From Salinibaculum litoreum (lineage in GTDB: Archaea; Halobacteriota; Halobacteria; Halobacteriales; Haloarculaceae), in the NCBI GenBank assembly GCA_009789175.1, contig CP046866.1:2356001-2420000 (forward strand): a stretch of DNA of 64,000 nucleotides, written 5' to 3'. The notes below the pieces were generated by a model that saw only the letters and a program-made list of their open reading frames with translations, was not told the origin of the DNA and ran no database searches. This document shows, one piece after another, positions 47,374-57,581 of this stretch. The position numbers and the translations under genes are program-made. Each line of letters begins with the position of its first letter. Within the stretch, counting starts at the first letter, position 1.

Positions 47374-48624
47374 ATGAACGCAGGCGACAGGGTCCGTGTG
47401 GACCGCGCACAGCAGACCTTCGAGGGTGTCTTGCTCCCCTCCTCGACGCCCGAGACGCTCGTAGTGAAACTCGACTCGGGGTACAACGTCGGCGTCGACC
47501 GCGGCGAGGCCGCCGTCGATGTCCTGGAATCGGATGTCTACGATGTCGAGGACGCACAGAGCGAAGGCGACTCACTCGTCGAGTTCGACGAGGACCTCCC
47601 GACCATCTCGCTCATCTCGACGGGCGGGACCATCGCCTCGACCGTCGACTACCGGACCGGGGCCGTCACGGCGCAGTTCGACGCCGAGGACGTGCTGCGG
47701 GCGGTGCCGGACCTCGCCGGGCTGGCGAACTACCGCGGGCGCGTGGTCGCGAACATCCTCTCGGAGAACATGACCACCGACGTGTGGCAGGAACTGGCCG
47801 GGGCCATCCACGAGGAAATCGAGGCCGGCGCGGACGGCGTCGTCGTCATGCACGGCACCGACACGATGCAGTTCACCGCCGCTGCCATGGCCTTCATGCT
47901 CGATACGCCGGTCCCAATCGTCTTCACCGGCAGCCAGCGCTCGGCGGACCGACCGTCCTCCGACAACGTGATGAACGCGGTCTGTGCCGTCGAGGCGGCC
48001 AAAAGCGACTGCGCGGAAGTCCTGCTCTGTATGCACGCAAGCGAGTCCGACGAGCAGTGCGCACTCCATCGCGGCACGCGCACCCGGAAGAATCATACCT
48101 CCCGCCGGGACGCCTTCGAGACCGTCGGCGCGAAACCGCTCGGTGTCGCCGACTACGAACCCGGCGAGACGCCCGAACTCTCCTTCCGGCGGGAGTACGA
48201 GGAGCGCGGAGCAACCGACCTCGCGCTGCACGACGCCCTCGAAACCGACGTGGAACTGGTGAAGTTCACCCCCGGGACCGGCCCCGAACGACTGGAGCGG
48301 GTTTCGGACGCCGCCGGCGTCGTCATCGAGGGGACGGGACTGGGCCACGTCAACACCGACTGGATTCCCGTCGTCGAGGAACTGACCGACGCGGGCACGC
48401 CCGTGGTGATGACCAGCCAGTGTATCGAGGGACGGGTCTGTGACCGCGTGTACGACACCGGCCGTGACCTGCTGGACGCCGGCGTCATCGAGGGCGAGGA
48501 CATCCTCCCCGGGACGGCGAAGGTGAAGCTGATGTGGGCACTGGAAAACACCGAGACCGTCGCCGAGACGATGGGTCGGAACCTCGCCGGCGAGATTCAA
48601 AACCGGTCGACGCCCTGGGAATGA
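47374..48624 (+). CDS. gatD: Glutamyl-tRNA(Gln) amidotransferase subunit D
   Basis: A 416-residue L-asparaginase-like subunit that frees ammonia from Gln or Asn for GatE, which turns Glu-tRNA(Gln) into Gln-tRNA(Gln). The N-terminal beta-barrel (residues 1-75) precedes the asparaginase core: ISLISTGGTIASTVDY with the nucleophile Thr, VVMHGTDTMQFTAAAMAFML (in part) with the Thr-Asp pair, FTGSQRSADRPSSDNVMNAV (in part) and VMTSQCIEGRV. GatE is elsewhere. It overlaps the GNAT gene by four bases. Confidence 0.95.
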   Translation: MNAGDRVRVDRAQQTFEGVLLPSSTPETLVVKLDSGYNVGVDRGEAAVDVLESDVYDVEDAQSEGDSLVEFDEDLPTISLISTGGTIASTVDYRTGAVTAQFDAEDVLRAVPDLAGLANYRGRVVANILSENMTTDVWQELAGAIHEEIEAGADGVVVMHGTDTMQFTAAAMAFMLDTPVPIVFTGSQRSADRPSSDNVMNAVCAVEAAKSDCAEVLLCMHASESDEQCALHRGTRTRKNHTSRRDAFETVGAKPLGVADYEPGETPELSFRREYEERGATDLALHDALETDVELVKFTPGTGPERLERVSDAAGVVIEGTGLGHVNTDWIPVVEELTDAGTPVVMTSQCIEGRVCDRVYDTGRDLLDAGVIEGEDILPGTAKVKLMWALENTETVAETMGRNLAGEIQNRSTPWE

Positions 48625-49532
48625 CCGACCGCGAGGTCCGGCAGGCACGGGCAGACGACCACGACGCAGTCGCCGGGTTCACCGACGACACCTGGAGCGA
48701 CCGCAACGTAGGGGATTACATCTCGGAGGTGTTCGAGGAGTGGGTGGAGACGGACGGCCCCAGCCAGCGAACGGCCGTCGTCGAGGTCGACGGTGAGGTT
48801 GCCGGCGTCTGTCAGACGCACCTGCTCACCGACGACGAGGCGTGGCTGCAGGGAATGCGGGTCCATCCCGACTACCGCGGGAGCGGCCACGGGCGCGCGC
48901 TGATGGCGTCGCTGTTCGAGTGGTGTCACGAGCGGGGCGCGAGCGTCGTCCGGAACATGGTCTTCGGGTGGAACGCCGCGGGGATGGGCCAGTCACGCGC
49001 GGTCGGCTTCGAGCCGGTTGCTTCCTGTCGGTGGGCGCGTCCCGACCCCGCGGCCGACGGGCCACGCCCCGACGGTGACTTCGAGACTGTCGACGACGTG
49101 ATTGCGGCCTGGCGGTTCTGGACACACAGCGAGACGCGGACGACGCTGAGCGGGCTAGCACTCGATACGGACGAGGCGTGGGCGCTGGCGGAACTGAGCC
49201 GGGACCGGCTGTGGACAATCGCCGCTGCCGGCCGGGTCTTCACCGTCGCCACCGACCGCACACGAGGGGTCGCCGCCCGCATCGGGACTCGCGAAAACGA
49301 GAGAGGGACAGTCGTCGACTACGCCGTCGGCGCGTGGGCCGATACGGACGCCGCGGTGGCGCTGTTCGACGCGATTCGGACGGACGCCGCCGAGGTGGGC
49401 GCGGACGCAACGCGGGTGTGGTTCCCCGACACCCCGCAGTTCACCTCGGATGTCGCCGTGGCACGGGCACAGCCCAGCGACGACACGGTACTGGTTTTCG
49501 CCGCCGACCTTACCCGACCTACCCACCGCTGA
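48621..49532 (+). CDS. GNAT family N-acetyltransferase
   Basis: A 303-residue protein. Residues 1-145 are a GNAT domain with the acetyl-CoA loop MRVHPDYRGSGHGRALM near residue 80. The C-terminal 150 residues (TLSGLALDTDEAWALAELSRDRL in part, and TRVWFPDTPQFTSDVAVARA in part) look like a second degenerate acyltransferase domain. The substrate is unknown. ATG 48621 overlaps the gatD stop (ATGA), so the two are coupled. Confidence 0.85.
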   Translation: MTDREVRQARADDHDAVAGFTDDTWSDRNVGDYISEVFEEWVETDGPSQRTAVVEVDGEVAGVCQTHLLTDDEAWLQGMRVHPDYRGSGHGRALMASLFEWCHERGASVVRNMVFGWNAAGMGQSRAVGFEPVASCRWARPDPAADGPRPDGDFETVDDVIAAWRFWTHSETRTTLSGLALDTDEAWALAELSRDRLWTIAAAGRVFTVATDRTRGVAARIGTRENERGTVVDYAVGAWADTDAAVALFDAIRTDAAEVGADATRVWFPDTPQFTSDVAVARAQPSDDTVLVFAADLTRPTHR

Positions 49533-49794
49533 CAGGCGGAAACAGCGCGAGTTCGGTATCCTCGTCGACGACCGTGTCCCAGCCATCGGTCTCGGCGAAG
49601 GGGTCGGCTCCGTCGACGAGCAGGCGAACGTGGTCGGAGAGTTGCTCGTCCTCATCAAGCACTTCGGCAGCGAGGTCAGGGTGGGTCTCCAGCAGGGCAT
49701 CGAAGGCCTCCCGGAGAGTCGCCTCCTCACGGTCGAGGGACACCTCGTCGGTGCCGGCAGCCTCAGAGAGGGTCGCGAACAGTCGCCAGTCCAT
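49519..49794 (-). CDS. samp1: Ubiquitin-like small modifier protein, SAMP1/MoaD type
   Basis: A 91-residue beta-grasp protein ending LFPPVSGG, the di-Gly terminus that is adenylated by UbaA and joined to target lysines (sampylation) or used as sulfur carrier in molybdopterin synthesis. MDWRLFATLSEAAG and the LREAFDALLETHPDL helix match Haloferax SAMP1 closely, as I remember that sequence. It overlaps the GNAT gene convergently by 14 bases. ATG 49794 gives the family start. Confidence 0.88.
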   Translation of the reverse strand: MDWRLFATLSEAAGTDEVSLDREEATLREAFDALLETHPDLAAEVLDEDEQLSDHVRLLVDGADPFAETDGWDTVVDEDTELALFPPVSGG

Positions 49795-49910
49795 ACTCGA
49801 CTCTGGGCCGTGCCAGCACAAAGAGGGTTCGCACTCGGAGGACGGCTGTCACGACACCAGCGACACGGATGCCGCCAAACAGTGAGGTGCGAGCAGTCCG
49901 TAGCGACTCT

Positions 49911-51191
49911 ATGAACGAGCATTCGGGCGACAGTGAGGGTCACGCAGACGAACGGGGCCGCGTGGGCGAGTCGTTCCGGTTCGCATACGACCCGCCGGTG
50001 CTTCGCTGTGGCCGCGGGGCGACAGCCAGTCTCGGCGAGGAACTGGCCGAACATGGCTACGAGCGGGCGCTGGTCGTCTGCGGGCAGACCGTCGGGTCGA
50101 CGCCGGCGGTCATCGACCCGGTGCGGGAGGGGCTGGGCGACAGGCTGGCCGGCGTCTTCGCCGGAACCACACCCGAAAAACGACTGTCGACGGCCGCCGA
50201 CGCCGTCGACGCGCTCCGCGAGGTGGCGGCCGACTGCATCGTCGCACTGGGTGGCGGGAGCAGTCTCGACGTAGCCAAGCAGACGAGTCTCCTCGCAGCG
50301 CGTGTCCGGGCAGCCAGGGCGGGGACGCGCCCAGGCGACATCTACGCGGCCGCAGGCGGCGAGTTCGAGCGGACGGGCACGCTCGCCGTCCCGGCGGACG
50401 GGCTGGTCCCCATCGTCGCGGTACCGACGACGCTTGCCGGGGCCGACATCTCGCAGGTCGCCGGCGTGACCGCGACACCGGCAGACGGCCTCGTGGAGAC
50501 GGCGACCGACGGCGGCATCTCCGACCCTGGATTGATGCCCAAGACGGTCGTCGCCGACCCCGGCCTCATCGAGACCACACCCGAGCGCGTGCTGGCAGCG
50601 TCGGCGATGAACGGCTTCGACAAGGGCGTCGAGACGCTGTACGCACGGACGGCGACGCCGGTCACCGACGCGACTGCAGTGCATGGGCTCTCACTGTTCC
50701 GGGACGGGCTGTTGGCATTCGGCGACGGGTCCCGCGAGGAGTGGGTCTTCAACGCCCTCGCGCGTGGGTGTCTGCTCGTCCAGTACGGCATCTCCCGGCC
50801 GGGTCCGGGGACGCTTTCGTTGGTTCACGCCTTCGGCCACGGGCTGACCCGGACAGCGCCTCTCCAGCAGGGCGTGGCCCACGCCGTCGTCGCACCCCAC
50901 GTCTTAGAGTACGTTTTCGAGCGTGTCGACGGCCGCCGGGACCTGCTGGCGGAAGCGTTCGGCGTGGCCAAGCGAGAGGACAGCGAGGACGTGGCCGAAG
51001 AGGTCATCGACGGGCTGCGGGAACTGCGAGACGCGCTCGGTTTGCCCGCGCGGTTACGCGACGTGGACGGTCCCGACCGGGAGGCGTTGCCCGAGGTGGC
51101 AAGCGCAGTTCTCGGCGATGGATTACTCCCGAACGGGCCCGTCGAGCCGACACAGGCGGACATCGAAACGATTCTCGACGCCGCGTGGTAG
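49911..51191 (+). CDS. Iron-containing alcohol dehydrogenase
   Basis: A 426-residue protein of the group III (iron) ADH family: ALVVCGQTVGSTP, the NAD loop VALGGGSSLDVAKQTSLLA (in part), VPTTLAGADISQVAGVT, KTVVADPGLIETTP, MNGFDKGVETLY and the metal-site HAFGHGLTRTAPLQQGVAHAVVAPHVLEY (in part), which has His pairs for the metal. The substrate is an alcohol, aldehyde or sugar acid; not resolvable here. ATG 49911 is preferred. Confidence 0.9.
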   Translation: MNEHSGDSEGHADERGRVGESFRFAYDPPVLRCGRGATASLGEELAEHGYERALVVCGQTVGSTPAVIDPVREGLGDRLAGVFAGTTPEKRLSTAADAVDALREVAADCIVALGGGSSLDVAKQTSLLAARVRAARAGTRPGDIYAAAGGEFERTGTLAVPADGLVPIVAVPTTLAGADISQVAGVTATPADGLVETATDGGISDPGLMPKTVVADPGLIETTPERVLAASAMNGFDKGVETLYARTATPVTDATAVHGLSLFRDGLLAFGDGSREEWVFNALARGCLLVQYGISRPGPGTLSLVHAFGHGLTRTAPLQQGVAHAVVAPHVLEYVFERVDGRRDLLAEAFGVAKREDSEDVAEEVIDGLRELRDALGLPARLRDVDGPDREALPEVASAVLGDGLLPNGPVEPTQADIETILDAAW

Positions 51192-51198
51192 CTACCTT

Positions 51199-51242
51199 TT
51201 GACAGCGAGAGAGTCCCGTCGTTCACGACGGGGAGGATGTCA
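51199..51242 (+). mobile_element. Probable solo right end of an IS200/IS605-type element
   Basis: CTTTTGACAGCGAGAGAGT, then the hairpin CCCGTCGT-tc-ACGACGGG (51215-51232), then GGAGGATGTCA. This order, TTGAC..GAGAGTCCC, a hairpin and a GGAGGATGTCA end, is how I remember the right ends of haloarchaeal IS200/IS605 (tnpB-carrying) elements, which also form the 3' part of the omega-like RNA. No tnpA or tnpB is left. The identification is from memory; the hairpin itself is certain. Confidence 0.6.
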
Positions 51243-52007
51243 TACAGAGGGCGTCGTCACGTGTTCGTGGGCGGCAGCGTGACAGCGCTGACAGAGCGTG
51301 ACCAGGTTGTCAACAGCGACGACGCCGCCGTGGTTCGGCGTCACGACGAAGTGAGCCTCCAGCGTGGCGCTACCGGTGTCGAAGTCCACGCCGCAGTTCC
51401 GGCAGGCGTGGCCGTCCCGCTCGAAGACGGCCTCCCGGAGCGTCTCCCAGGAGTCCACGTCGCCGGCGGTTCCCTCCTCGACGTCGTCGATGGCCGATTC
51501 GATAGTGAGGTCAGTTCCCGTCGTGATGATGACCGGGCCGTCGGGGTCGGTCGCAATCACGTCAAGCGGCCGCCAGCTTCCGACGACGACGCCGAAGGGC
51601 TGGTGTGGCCCGACCATCACCCATAGCCGCTCGCCGGTCTCGGTCGGCGTCTCCAGCAGTTCGTTCGTAATCAGGCGGGCGTGGTCGGCCCGAATCGGGT
51701 CACACAGCGGCTTGGTCGGACGCACCGTCACCGCCTCGGCCTCGGCCGGCTCGACGGCCACGACATCGACCTCGTTTCCGGGGTCGACGCCGGCGTTTTG
51801 CCGCGTGAAGCCATCGATGCGAACCACGTCCGACTCCACGTCGGTATCCTGTGTGTGATTGATAGTCACCAGCGTCCGGTCAGTTCCCTCGATGGCGACA
51901 GTGTCGCCGCGTTCGACGCCCAGTTCGTCCATCGCTCCCTCGTCGAGGTGGGCAACGGTCCGCCCCTTCGAGGAGTCGTATGCCTGTTCGACACGACGCG
52001 TGACCAT
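51240..52007 (-). CDS. Cdc48-type N-domain fused to an HNH endonuclease
   Basis: A 255-residue protein. Residues 6-97 read as the Cdc48/VAT double-psi barrel (SKGRTVAHLDEGAMDELGV, GDTVAIEG, VVRIDGFTRQNAGVDPGNEV), and 98-168 as its second N-subdomain, but no AAA+ ATPase follows. Residues 188-247 form an HNH nuclease domain with Cys202, Cys205, Cys239 and Cys242 as zinc ligands and His219-Asn234-His243. Cdc48 N-domains bind adaptors and substrates, so this may be a nuclease recruited like a Cdc48 client. The stop codon lies in the IS-like end. Confidence 0.82.
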   Translation of the reverse strand: MVTRRVEQAYDSSKGRTVAHLDEGAMDELGVERGDTVAIEGTDRTLVTINHTQDTDVESDVVRIDGFTRQNAGVDPGNEVDVVAVEPAEAEAVTVRPTKPLCDPIRADHARLITNELLETPTETGERLWVMVGPHQPFGVVVGSWRPLDVIATDPDGPVIITTGTDLTIESAIDDVEEGTAGDVDSWETLREAVFERDGHACRNCGVDFDTGSATLEAHFVVTPNHGGVVAVDNLVTLCQRCHAAAHEHVTTPSV

Positions 52008-52158
52008 GCGTCGACTTCGATAGCAGCCGGGAAAAGCGCGAGGGGTCGCGGTACGACAGGCCGGAACTGTGCCGGACAGGTAGCTCTCCCGCAGTAATGA
52101 TGGGGATGGGACTGCTGGGTGTACTCATGCGTGTCCACTGCAGGCGGAGGGGCTGGCT

Positions 52159-52737
52159 GTGAGCGAGCCGCGTCCGGACGGGGGACCAGCCACCGGCGAG
52201 CAGAGGCCGGACCTCGGCGACGCGATGGAGGAACTCGAAGAACTGGAGGGCATCGTCGACAGCCCCGAGGAACGCGAACAGGTCCGGGAAGCGATGCGAA
52301 CGCTACGGCACGCCCGCCCACAGCCGTTCGGTCGCCTGCGGGATAGCTTCGACTCGCGTGATGCCGGCGAGGCACTCGTCGGGAGCGTCCTGTTTGGCAT
52401 CCCGATGGTCGTCGAGGACGGCACCTTCGAGGCCGGAGCCTACATCGCGACGCGGCCACTGCATATCGCCCTGACAGCGACGCTGGGCCTGGCGCTCGTG
52501 TTGGGCATCCTCCGGGCCGTCGAGTTCGATAAAATCGAGGCGGACATGCTCTTTGGCGTGATACCGATTCGACTGGTCGGCATCCTCACGATTGCCGCCG
52601 TGACGGCCACCCTCCTGGTGACCGTCTGGGGCCGCGTCGACTGGGCCGACCCACAGGTCGCTGCCAGTCAGGTACTCGTGACGGCGGTCGTGATGGCCGT
52701 CGGCGCCTCGCTGGGCGACGTACTACCGGGGAGCTAG
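52159..52737 (+). CDS. DUF2391 (TIGR02587-type) membrane protein
   Basis: A 192-residue protein with an acidic helical N-terminus (MEELEELEGIVDSPEEREQ) and four membrane helices. ALVGSVLFGIPMVVEDGTFEAG and ILRAVEFDKIEADMLFGVIPIRLVG (in part) are family-like. Function unknown. GTG 52159 is chosen for the GGAGGGG Shine-Dalgarno about eight bases before it. Its stop touches the ZIP start, so the two are one operon. Confidence 0.82.
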   Translation: MSEPRPDGGPATGEQRPDLGDAMEELEELEGIVDSPEEREQVREAMRTLRHARPQPFGRLRDSFDSRDAGEALVGSVLFGIPMVVEDGTFEAGAYIATRPLHIALTATLGLALVLGILRAVEFDKIEADMLFGVIPIRLVGILTIAAVTATLLVTVWGRVDWADPQVAASQVLVTAVVMAVGASLGDVLPGS

Positions 52738-53568
52738 ATGCTCGCAGACACCTTCGTCGACATCGTCGGAACCGACCCGCTCGTCCAGGGGCTTGCCGGC
52801 GGTATCGTCATCGCGGCCATGAACCTCTTCGGTGCGTCGCTGGTGCTGGTCTGGCGCGACCCCAGCGAGCGCGCGCTGGATGGGGCACTCGGCTTTGCGG
52901 CGGGTATCATGCTCGCAGCCAGTTTCACGAGTCTCATCCTGCCGGGAATCGAGGCGACGCCGGGGGGCAGTCCGCTGCCGGTCCTGACCGGCGTCTTGCT
53001 CGGCGTTGCCTTTCTCGACCGAGCAGACGTACTCGTGCCCCACGCCCACTACCTGCTGACCGGCCGCCGACGGAGTGATGCCGCCCACCCGCCGGAGTCG
53101 TTGCCCGTTGCCGACGAGCGACTTGCATCGCTCGTGTTGTTCGTGCTGGCGATTACGCTTCACAACATGCCCGAGGGGCTGTCCGTCGGCGTCGGCTTCG
53201 GGTCGGGGGACATGACAAACGCCGTGGCGCTGATGCTGGCTATCGGCATCCAGAACATCCCGGAGGGGCTTGCCGTCTCGGTGGCAGCGATCAACGCCGG
53301 ACTCGACCGGCGGGCCTACGCCGCCTTCGCGGGCATCCGCGCGGGCGTCGTCGAGATACCGCTTGCCGTATTCGGAGCCGTCGCCGTCTCTTTTGCCGCT
53401 GGCGTCTTACCCTACGCGATGGGCTTTGCAGCGGGGGCGATGCTCTTTGTCATCAGCGACGAAATCATCCCGGAGACGCACACTCGCGGCTACGAGCGGG
53501 TCGCGACACTCGGGACGATGCTGGGCATCGTCGTCATGCTGTATCTGGACGTGGCGCTTGCGGCCTGA
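52738..53568 (+). CDS. ZIP family metal transporter
   Basis: A 276-residue carrier with about eight helices. The metal-path helices carry LAITLHNMPEGLSVGVGFG and AIGIQNIPEGLAVSVA, with the His-Asn-x-Pro-Glu-Gly signature, and a His-containing loop (VPHAHYLLTGRRRSD). ZIP proteins bring Zn, Fe or Mn into the cell. The start codon follows the DUF2391 stop directly. Confidence 0.93.
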   Translation: MLADTFVDIVGTDPLVQGLAGGIVIAAMNLFGASLVLVWRDPSERALDGALGFAAGIMLAASFTSLILPGIEATPGGSPLPVLTGVLLGVAFLDRADVLVPHAHYLLTGRRRSDAAHPPESLPVADERLASLVLFVLAITLHNMPEGLSVGVGFGSGDMTNAVALMLAIGIQNIPEGLAVSVAAINAGLDRRAYAAFAGIRAGVVEIPLAVFGAVAVSFAAGVLPYAMGFAAGAMLFVISDEIIPETHTRGYERVATLGTMLGIVVMLYLDVALAA

Positions 53569-54790: not shown

Positions 54791-55468
54791 ATGAGTGACC
54801 ACGGGGATGAGCAACCCCCGCCGACGGACCGAGAGTCCCCAGTCGGAACGCCAGTCATCCGCGGAGACCCGTCGCTTACTGGCGAGCACGCCGAGCGGGC
54901 AGTCGAGTTCAACCCCGAGGACCCAGAGAGTCTGGAACTCGCTGCGGAGACAGTCGCTGCATTCTCCGAGAACACCGCCGGGGCCGACGACAACGTCTTG
55001 ATGTTGCGCGGCGCGGCAGCCTGTGCTGCGCTCGTCCGCGGCGAGGGGTCGTACAAGGCCGCAGCAGAGCGCGCTGGCGGTGAGGTGACCGTCTCCTTCA
55101 TCAGGAAATGGTCGCGGGTCCACGACCTGCCACAGTCGATTCGCCGCCACGTCGCGCGCGGCGAGATTGCCCCCACCGCTGCGAAACACATCGCTCGCAT
55201 CTCCGGGGAGGCCCGCCTGCATCTGGCGTGGGCCGTCCTGGACCACGACCTGACGGTCCGACAGGTCCGCTCGACCGCCAGCGCCGTCAACGACGGTACA
55301 TCCGTCGAGACAGCGCTGGCCCGTGCAGGCATCACACTCGGCGAATTGGAGTTGCAGCTTCCACCCGACATCTACTGTAAACTCCGGCGGGAGGCCTCAC
55401 TGGCCGATAGCCAGCCCGGTGACCTCGTCGCCGAGGCGCTGTCAGAGTGGTTCGAGACAGATGACTAG
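54791..55468 (+). CDS. DUF7119-like protein with a ParB-type HTH core
   Basis: A 225-residue protein. Residues 85-175 (YKAAAERAGGEVTVSFIRKW, VHDLPQSIRRHVARGEIAPTAAKHIARI, ARLHLAWAVLDHDLTVRQVR; each in part) follow the ParB/KorB central helix-turn-helix: a recognition helix, then LPxxIRxxVxxGxIxPxxA. The ParB N-terminal CTPase motif (GERR) is missing. The end, LPPDIYCKLRREASLADSQPGDLVAEAL (in part), looks like a ribbon-helix or dimerisation piece. It is likely a DNA-binding protein with an unknown site. Confidence 0.75.
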   Translation: MSDHGDEQPPPTDRESPVGTPVIRGDPSLTGEHAERAVEFNPEDPESLELAAETVAAFSENTAGADDNVLMLRGAAACAALVRGEGSYKAAAERAGGEVTVSFIRKWSRVHDLPQSIRRHVARGEIAPTAAKHIARISGEARLHLAWAVLDHDLTVRQVRSTASAVNDGTSVETALARAGITLGELELQLPPDIYCKLRREASLADSQPGDLVAEALSEWFETDD

Positions 55469-56303: not shown

Positions 56304-57581
56304 TTATCCCTTGTTGGGGAGGTAGGCCGCAGCGATGAGGATGATACCGGCCATCAGCGAGAGGAAGACGATGCCCCACAGGCCGTTCATCCGGGTGTCG
56401 AACGCGTCGATGGAGGACAGGTCACTCTGGTAGCTCCCGTAGTACTCGTCGTTGGGGAGAATCTGGACGGAGTTGTTGTTGGGGAAGTGGACGAAGTACT
56501 GCTGGTCGTTGAGCGTGATGTTCGTCCCTTCCTCGAGCCCTATCGTCTCGTTGCCGGGGGCGGCCCACTCGATAGTGGCAGCCGTCGTTGCGATAGCAGT
56601 GACGTTGGCCGTCGTGTCCGCTGGCGAGTGGTAGTACTCGTCACCGACCGCGAGCGTGACCGTGCTGTTTGCCGGGAGGTACTCGCTCGTTTCGACGAAG
56701 GAGCCGTCCGAGAGCAGGACGTACTCACCACCGTCGGTGACGTTCGTCGCGGCATCATCGTTTGCAATCATCACCGAGAGGTTCTGGACTTTCGTCATCG
56801 TGACGCTCTCGTTGCCGAACTGCGAGGGCAGGCTGAACTCCGTCTGGGCGGTAAGCGTCTCGCCTGCGCCAAGCGTCGCTGACTCGTTCCACTCCAGCGT
56901 GACGTTCCCGGACCCGACTGCAGCGACGGTGGTGGTCACACCGACGGGCTGGTACTCGAGGGAATCGCCAGTCGAGAGCGTCGTGTTATCGGTGGCGTCG
57001 GCAGTGTTGACCAGGGTGAACGAACCCTCCGGTTCGCTCGGAATCTGGACGCGGTACTCACCACCATCGTAGGCGACGGTCGAGCCGTTTGCGACCATCG
57101 CATGCTTGACCAGACGCAGGTCGGCGTTGCCGGTCGTAACGTTCTCGATAATGGCAGTGGCGTCTTCGTCCGGATAGTAGAATTCCTCGCCCGTACGCAG
57201 GTTCAGCGTCTCCGAGGCGTTGTCAGTGCGGGCGAGCGTGACGTAATCACCCTCGAGGGTCTGCACCTCGTAGGAGTCGCGGTAGGCGACAGTGGAGTCG
57301 TTTGCAAGCTCTGCGGACTTCATTGCCGACTCGTTGAACCACGTGAGTTCACCCGAGCGAACGAGTTCGTCCGGGGCGCCGTGTTCACCCTCCTGTATCT
57401 CAGCGCTGACACCTGTGACCGTGTACGACTGGTCATCGACGGTGAGGGTATCTCCCTGGGAATACGCCGGCCCGTCAAGGTCGACCTCAGGCTGACTCGC
57501 ACCAACCTGAATGAACCCTAGCGCGCCGACGGCCAGCACGCTGAAAATGATGAAGTAGACCGCTGCGGCTCGACGTTGCAT
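56304..57581 (-). CDS. Surface protein with repeated beta modules between two membrane helices
   Basis: A 425-residue protein with an N-terminal helix (residues 7-27) and a C-terminal helix (398-420, ending LPNKG). The ectodomain is built of about five modules of 60-75 residues, each with a pattern such as GxSVAYRDSYEVQTLEGDYVTLxxTxNxSETLxLxTGEEFYYP and many N-x-S/T sites. Low in charge apart from Asp and Glu. It is probably a cell-envelope protein of unknown role. Confidence 0.75.
   Translation of the reverse strand: MQRRAAAVYFIIFSVLAVGALGFIQVGASQPEVDLDGPAYSQGDTLTVDDQSYTVTGVSAEIQEGEHGAPDELVRSGELTWFNESAMKSAELANDSTVAYRDSYEVQTLEGDYVTLARTDNASETLNLRTGEEFYYPDEDATAIIENVTTGNADLRLVKHAMVANGSTVAYDGGEYRVQIPSEPEGSFTLVNTADATDNTTLSTGDSLEYQPVGVTTTVAAVGSGNVTLEWNESATLGAGETLTAQTEFSLPSQFGNESVTMTKVQNLSVMIANDDAATNVTDGGEYVLLSDGSFVETSEYLPANSTVTLAVGDEYYHSPADTTANVTAIATTAATIEWAAPGNETIGLEEGTNITLNDQQYFVHFPNNNSVQILPNDEYYGSYQSDLSSIDAFDTRMNGLWGIVFLSLMAGIILIAAAYLPNKG

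Follow-up and report, generated by a model that had tools for sequence, protein, structure and literature searches.

Cdc48 N-domains are normally attached to an unfoldase, and the locus described here raises the question of what such a head does when it occurs free of that motor, attached to a nuclease-type fold without its general base, in a gene that selection maintains. The gene lies in a window of 64,000 nucleotides from Salinibaculum litoreum (contig CP046866.1, positions 2,356,001 to 2,420,000), and its main features, numbered within the window, are as follows.

51240..52007, minus strand: fusion gene, Cdc48-type N-domain plus degenerate HNH, 255 aa; ATG at 52007, stop at 51240-51242
51750..51998, minus strand: N subdomain 1, double-psi barrel type, residues 4-86 (Pfam CDC48_N, 7dg7 match, AF2 strands)
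51495..51749, minus strand: N subdomain 2, residues 87-171 (NCBIfam CDC48, blastp to the genome's own Cdc48, weak Pfam CDC48_2)
51456..51494, minus strand: linker, residues 172-184 (aligned with the Cdc48 passage from the N-D1 linker into the D1 ATPase)
51258..51455, minus strand: HNH-fold zinc domain, residues 185-250 (Pfam HNH, AF2, EcoKMcrA structural match)
52032..52035, minus strand: T-run, putative TATA element, 24 nt upstream of the fusion ATG and identically placed in the orthologue from Salinibaculum sp. KK48

A Cdc48-type head without its ATPase

The first-pass annotation had read the head of this protein as both subdomains of the Cdc48/VAT N-region with no AAA+ ATPase behind them, and profile searches bore this out. 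Specifically, Pfam CDC48_N covers residues 5-86 (E 1.5e-18) and Pfam HNH residues 202-247 (E 1.2e-6), both above their curated cut-offs, and no AAA domain was found in the 255-aa open reading frame by Pfam search. The NCBIfam full-length CDC48 profile (TIGR01243) spans residues 4-184 (E 8e-23) with a score of 80.6 bits where the cut-off for Cdc48 is 802.65, so that the protein has the two N subdomains and lacks the ATPase. Further, a Cdc48 from the same genome aligns across residues 2-182 at 32% identity (blastp), the main haloarchaeal Cdc48 is 32-33% identical over residues 5-170, and the closest solved structure is 7dg7, the N-domain of an archaeal Cdc48 (E 2.6e-11). Pfam CDC48_2 matches weakly, below its cut-off (E 0.038), and it is the alignment that supports subdomain 2; judged on these comparisons, a two-part Cdc48 N-domain is present. 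The fusion is thus homologous to Cdc48, VAT and p97 in both N subdomains, whereas it differs from them in lacking the D1 and D2 AAA+ ATPase and in evolving fast.

Structure prediction, which had been proposed as a check on this assignment, gave support to the HNH half and to part of the head. AF2 on the two orthologues alone reached a pLDDT of 37; a second run, to which HNH relatives were added, modelled the HNH half as a helix, two strands and a helix, with most pLDDT values in the range 86-96; in N subdomain 1 it recovered strands at pLDDT 70-79, within residues 21-60 only. Subdomain 2 obtained no confident model and consequently rests on sequence. The HNH half is predicted to form a beta-beta-alpha fold with a Cys4 zinc site, and its top structural match is EcoKMcrA, at middling values (Z 7.8, rmsd 3.2, 67 aligned), in agreement with the best match by sequence to the HNH part among solved structures. 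A Foldseek search with the predicted model returned nothing at E <=0.001 and no Cdc48 N-domain match. In the second structural comparison, most rows cover residues 175-255 alone, so that the lack of a Cdc48 N-domain among the structural matches is no evidence against the barrel.

A second copy, and the origin of the head

Could the fusion be an accident of one genome? A search for it in other archaea, also proposed in the first-pass annotation, yielded one other copy, in Salinibaculum sp. KK48 of the same genus, which is 66% identical over the full length. Given that copy with its shared flanking genes, and a dN/dS of ~0.25, the gene is real, and a dN of 0.245 against a dS of 1.00 indicates purifying selection on the fusion protein. 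In both species, exactly 24 nt separate the end of the T-run from the ATG and, to judge by that position, the run is likely the TATA element of a leaderless haloarchaeal transcript. Between the two copies, identity rises from 57% in N subdomain 1, the fastest evolving part, to 66% in subdomain 2 and 75% in the HNH, the better conserved domain.

The fusion is known from these two genomes only. No further example was found in 146 genomes of the family (E 1e-24), 391 of the class (E 1e-30) or 393 of the phylum (E 1e-24), sets that overlap and of which the larger are samples; the fusion therefore looks restricted to one genus in the sets searched. The sole extra match in the phylum set was a 790-aa open frame with the N-domain alone. 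With residues 88-255 as the query, many haloarchaeal HNH proteins were recovered, aligned at the HNH end alone, and no second fusion. A pattern scan of genome contigs returned one fusion relative, that of KK48, and scans of viral contigs neither a fusion nor a Cdc48 N-domain. Against plasmids and phages, tblastn found Cdc48 ATPases and HNH proteins apart and never fused; one match covers 82% of the query and is annotated as a CDC48 AAA ATPase. Among 13 near relatives, the other CDC48_N-type matches all lie in frames of >700 aa, bar one 362-aa frame in a fragmented genome. Our literature search found no published description of a Cdc48 N-domain-HNH fusion.

Phylogenetically (31 N-domains compared), the two fusions form a long branch that is sister to the most conserved haloarchaeal Cdc48 clade (support 93/79), the Cdc48 members of which are 92-98% identical to the first sequence of the aligned set. 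We call this clade Cdc48a, on the assumption that Haloferax Cdc48a belongs to it. The clade has 160 invariant positions, of which both fusions retain 43 and share an identical change at 56. Shared docking partners with Cdc48a hence cannot be assumed, and the head, with so few of these residues kept and with its fast N subdomain 1, may have lost the ability to dock ligands of the Cdc48 type. Greater divergence, possibly with altered substrates, is reported for the N-domains of Cdc48-family proteins that are not Cdc48 itself (PMC5070193). The fusion linker aligns with the N-D1 linker of Cdc48, and the HNH begins at the position where D1 would start. A plausible course of events is that a Cdc48 N-domain was duplicated, its nearest kin being the main haloarchaeal Cdc48, which is also the most conserved one, and that the duplicate was fused at the N-D1 linker to an HNH zinc domain of a kind common in haloarchaea (the fusion HNH is ~40-45% identical to such proteins), which later lost its general base through a His to Phe220 change.

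The genome studied here encodes three Cdc48 paralogues of full length, which differ greatly in how well they are conserved, and CDC48_N matches number about three in most haloarchaeal genomes and up to six in some (among the matches listed, 116 genomes searched).

The HNH site and what the fusion may do

The residues of the HNH domain that bear on cleavage are located as follows.

51393..51404, minus strand: first zinc pair, Cys202-x2-Cys205 (sequence and alignment)
51351..51353, minus strand: His219, metal-ligand position preceding the moniker His (alignments; PMC7897488)
51348..51350, minus strand: Phe220 at the general-base His position (alignments to haloarchaeal and viral-contig homologues)
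51330..51332, minus strand: His226, in both fusion copies, the sole visible candidate for a substitute base (alignment)
51306..51308, minus strand: Asn234 of the HNH motif (alignment)
51279..51293, minus strand: second zinc pair, Cys239-x2-Cys242, plus metal ligand His243 (sequence and alignment)

All zinc and metal ligands are kept; the four Cys, His219, Asn234, His243 and His247 are in place. Position 220 is His in 30 of 32 distinct homologues and Phe in the two fusions; among the viral-contig homologues aligned, it is His in 17/17. Phenylalanine cannot serve as a base. The motif A-H-H-I/V-V-P of haloarchaeal relatives reads A-H-F-V-V-T in both species, with Thr223 in place of the conserved Pro; aligned in this way, His219 takes the place of a metal ligand, and no general base is left. 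The moniker His of HNH enzymes is the residue that activates the attacking water, and it is often directly preceded by a metal ligand (PMC7897488). Of the zinc-stabilised HNH nuclease put forward earlier, the four Cys, His219, Asn234 and His243 are present, whereas His219 is not the moniker residue that it had been taken for, and Phe220 stands there instead. An ordinary active HNH nuclease does not fit a general-base position that is Phe in both orthologues and His in the other aligned homologues. The fusion thus shares with EcoKMcrA-type and haloarchaeal HNH domains the Cys4 zinc ribbon, the beta-beta-alpha fold, the metal ligands and the Asn, and departs from them in Phe220 and in its acidity: the domain carries a net charge of -4 and -3 in the two fusions, whereas 27 relatives average +1.7 (sd 2.7). 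Charge alone is no proof of lost activity, since one relative at -5 retains the His.

We hold, with moderate confidence, that the fusion is a non-catalytic or very weakly active two-domain binding protein. It would be soluble, ATP-independent and two-headed, with an N-domain that docks a protein partner and an HNH fold, zinc ligands intact, that binds either nucleic acid or another protein and does not cleave it. Such a protein could deliver a client or adaptor of the Cdc48 type to DNA or RNA, or it could compete for that molecule with a Cdc48 ring. Structures 6sz9 and 5x42 appear among the structural matches, and we take these to be Legionella DotN, presumably a precedent for a non-catalytic HNH fold; our literature search did not find DotN described as one, and it is given no weight here. 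A more specific version, which we consider rather doubtful, is that the freed N-domain acts as a stand-alone adaptor which, coupled to a nucleic-acid-holding pseudo-HNH and needing no ATP, takes Cdc48 or SAMP clients to DNA or RNA or holds them away from it. If true, this would be a new use of the Cdc48 head, within the searches made. More generally, the fusion illustrates how a common nuclease fold may turn into a binding module. If the head does dock Cdc48-type partners, it would offer a small tool for finding the ligands of archaeal Cdc48 N-domains, which are poorly known, and a direct test of the link reported in haloarchaea between Cdc48, SAMP1 and nucleases.

That link underlies the alternative closest to the earlier proposal, which is possible but not probable: an active nuclease, targeted by its N-domain to Cdc48/SAMP complexes, in which His226 or a water network replaces the general base. 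His226 is shared by the two fusions and absent from the listed relatives, and it might substitute for the lost residue; the set of metal ligands is complete. Changing the general-base His of HpyAV to Ala leaves about 1% of its activity, whereas changes at its metal ligands abolish it (PMC2816704), a result that counts both for a loss of catalysis in the fusion and for some remaining activity. A complex of the nucleases RecJ3, RecJ4 and aRNase J was identified in Haloferax volcanii because it associates with SAMP1 and Cdc48a in an ATP-dependent manner, and cells that lack cdc48a survive DNA damage less well (PMC10470531); in this organism, Cdc48c and SAMP2 serve targeted proteolysis (PMC4895103). 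By analogy with that complex, targeting of the fusion to Cdc48/SAMP complexes may be a reasonable idea. The Haloferax complex ties haloarchaeal Cdc48 and SAMP1 to nuclease-type proteins; it consists of separate polypeptides from other nuclease families, with association proposed via whole Cdc48a rather than a fused N-domain (PMC10470531). Against an active, targeted enzyme are the Phe that provides no base (Phe220 and Thr223 being common to both copies), the acidic HNH domain, the strong divergence of the N-domain from Cdc48a, and a SAMP1 gene that is not near the KK48 copy.

Unlikely, in our view, is that the N-domain is a decoy that draws adaptors or substrates away from Cdc48, with the HNH merely stabilising or dimerising it. 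An N-domain that has no ATPase, is close kin to one Cdc48 paralogue and is joined to an HNH without a general base would suit that role, but little of the Cdc48a surface is retained, and the two species differ less in the HNH than in the head, which would not be expected of a mere stabiliser. Finally, it is highly improbable that the fusion is, or is related to, a modification-dependent restriction enzyme, with the Cdc48 N-domain as DNA sensor, since, although its size and domain order resemble those of EcoKMcrA, its best HNH match by structure and sequence, although PADLOC gave weak matches to HNH defence proteins (HNH part only), and although SRA-HNH, EVE-HNH and NEco-HNH endonucleases share the layout of an N-terminal sensor followed by a C-terminal HNH (PMC7897488), its N-terminal part matches CDC48_N and not the PUA/EVE/SRA or NEco families in profile searches, those endonucleases have the active general base that is absent here (PMC7897488), a DNA-binding Cdc48 N-domain was not found in our literature search, and the gene has the same flanking context in both genomes.

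Neighbourhood of the fusion gene

The neighbouring genes of note are as follows.

49519..49821, minus strand: SAMP1 gene (NF041918, 105.5 bits, cut-off 60), near the fusion in this genome only
49869..51191, plus strand: iron-containing alcohol dehydrogenase, convergent neighbour of the fusion, conserved in KK48
52738..53568, plus strand: ZIP metal transporter, on the upstream side of the fusion, conserved in KK48

The first-pass annotation had pointed to a SAMP1 gene about 1.4 kb away with one gene in between. That gene is genuine, as its NF041918 match attests, and the intervening gene is the alcohol dehydrogenase. The inference drawn from it was not supported, because a search of the 20 kb surrounding the fusion in KK48 revealed no SAMP1 C-terminus motif; proximity that is not conserved there is not evidence for a link, and we rejected it as support for one.

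Other parts of the neighbourhood were also compared between the two genomes. Beyond the alcohol dehydrogenase, the window holds genes for GatD, a GNAT-type acetyltransferase and SAMP1 (47374-49821), and in KK48 the gene order breaks right after the alcohol dehydrogenase, with a different gene there. On the other side, a gene for a membrane protein that matches DUF2391 weakly (52159-52734, plus strand) lies between the fusion and ZIP genes; in KK48 these two are apparently directly divergent, so that the DUF2391-like gene has been gained or lost. Further along, a DUF7119 protein with a ParB-type HTH match (54791-55468, plus strand) has 80% identity in KK48. A predicted protein of 425 aa (56304-57581, minus strand) has a KK48 counterpart of 282 aa, 54% identical across the aligned part, and given this difference in length, internal segments have seemingly been gained or lost in one of the two.
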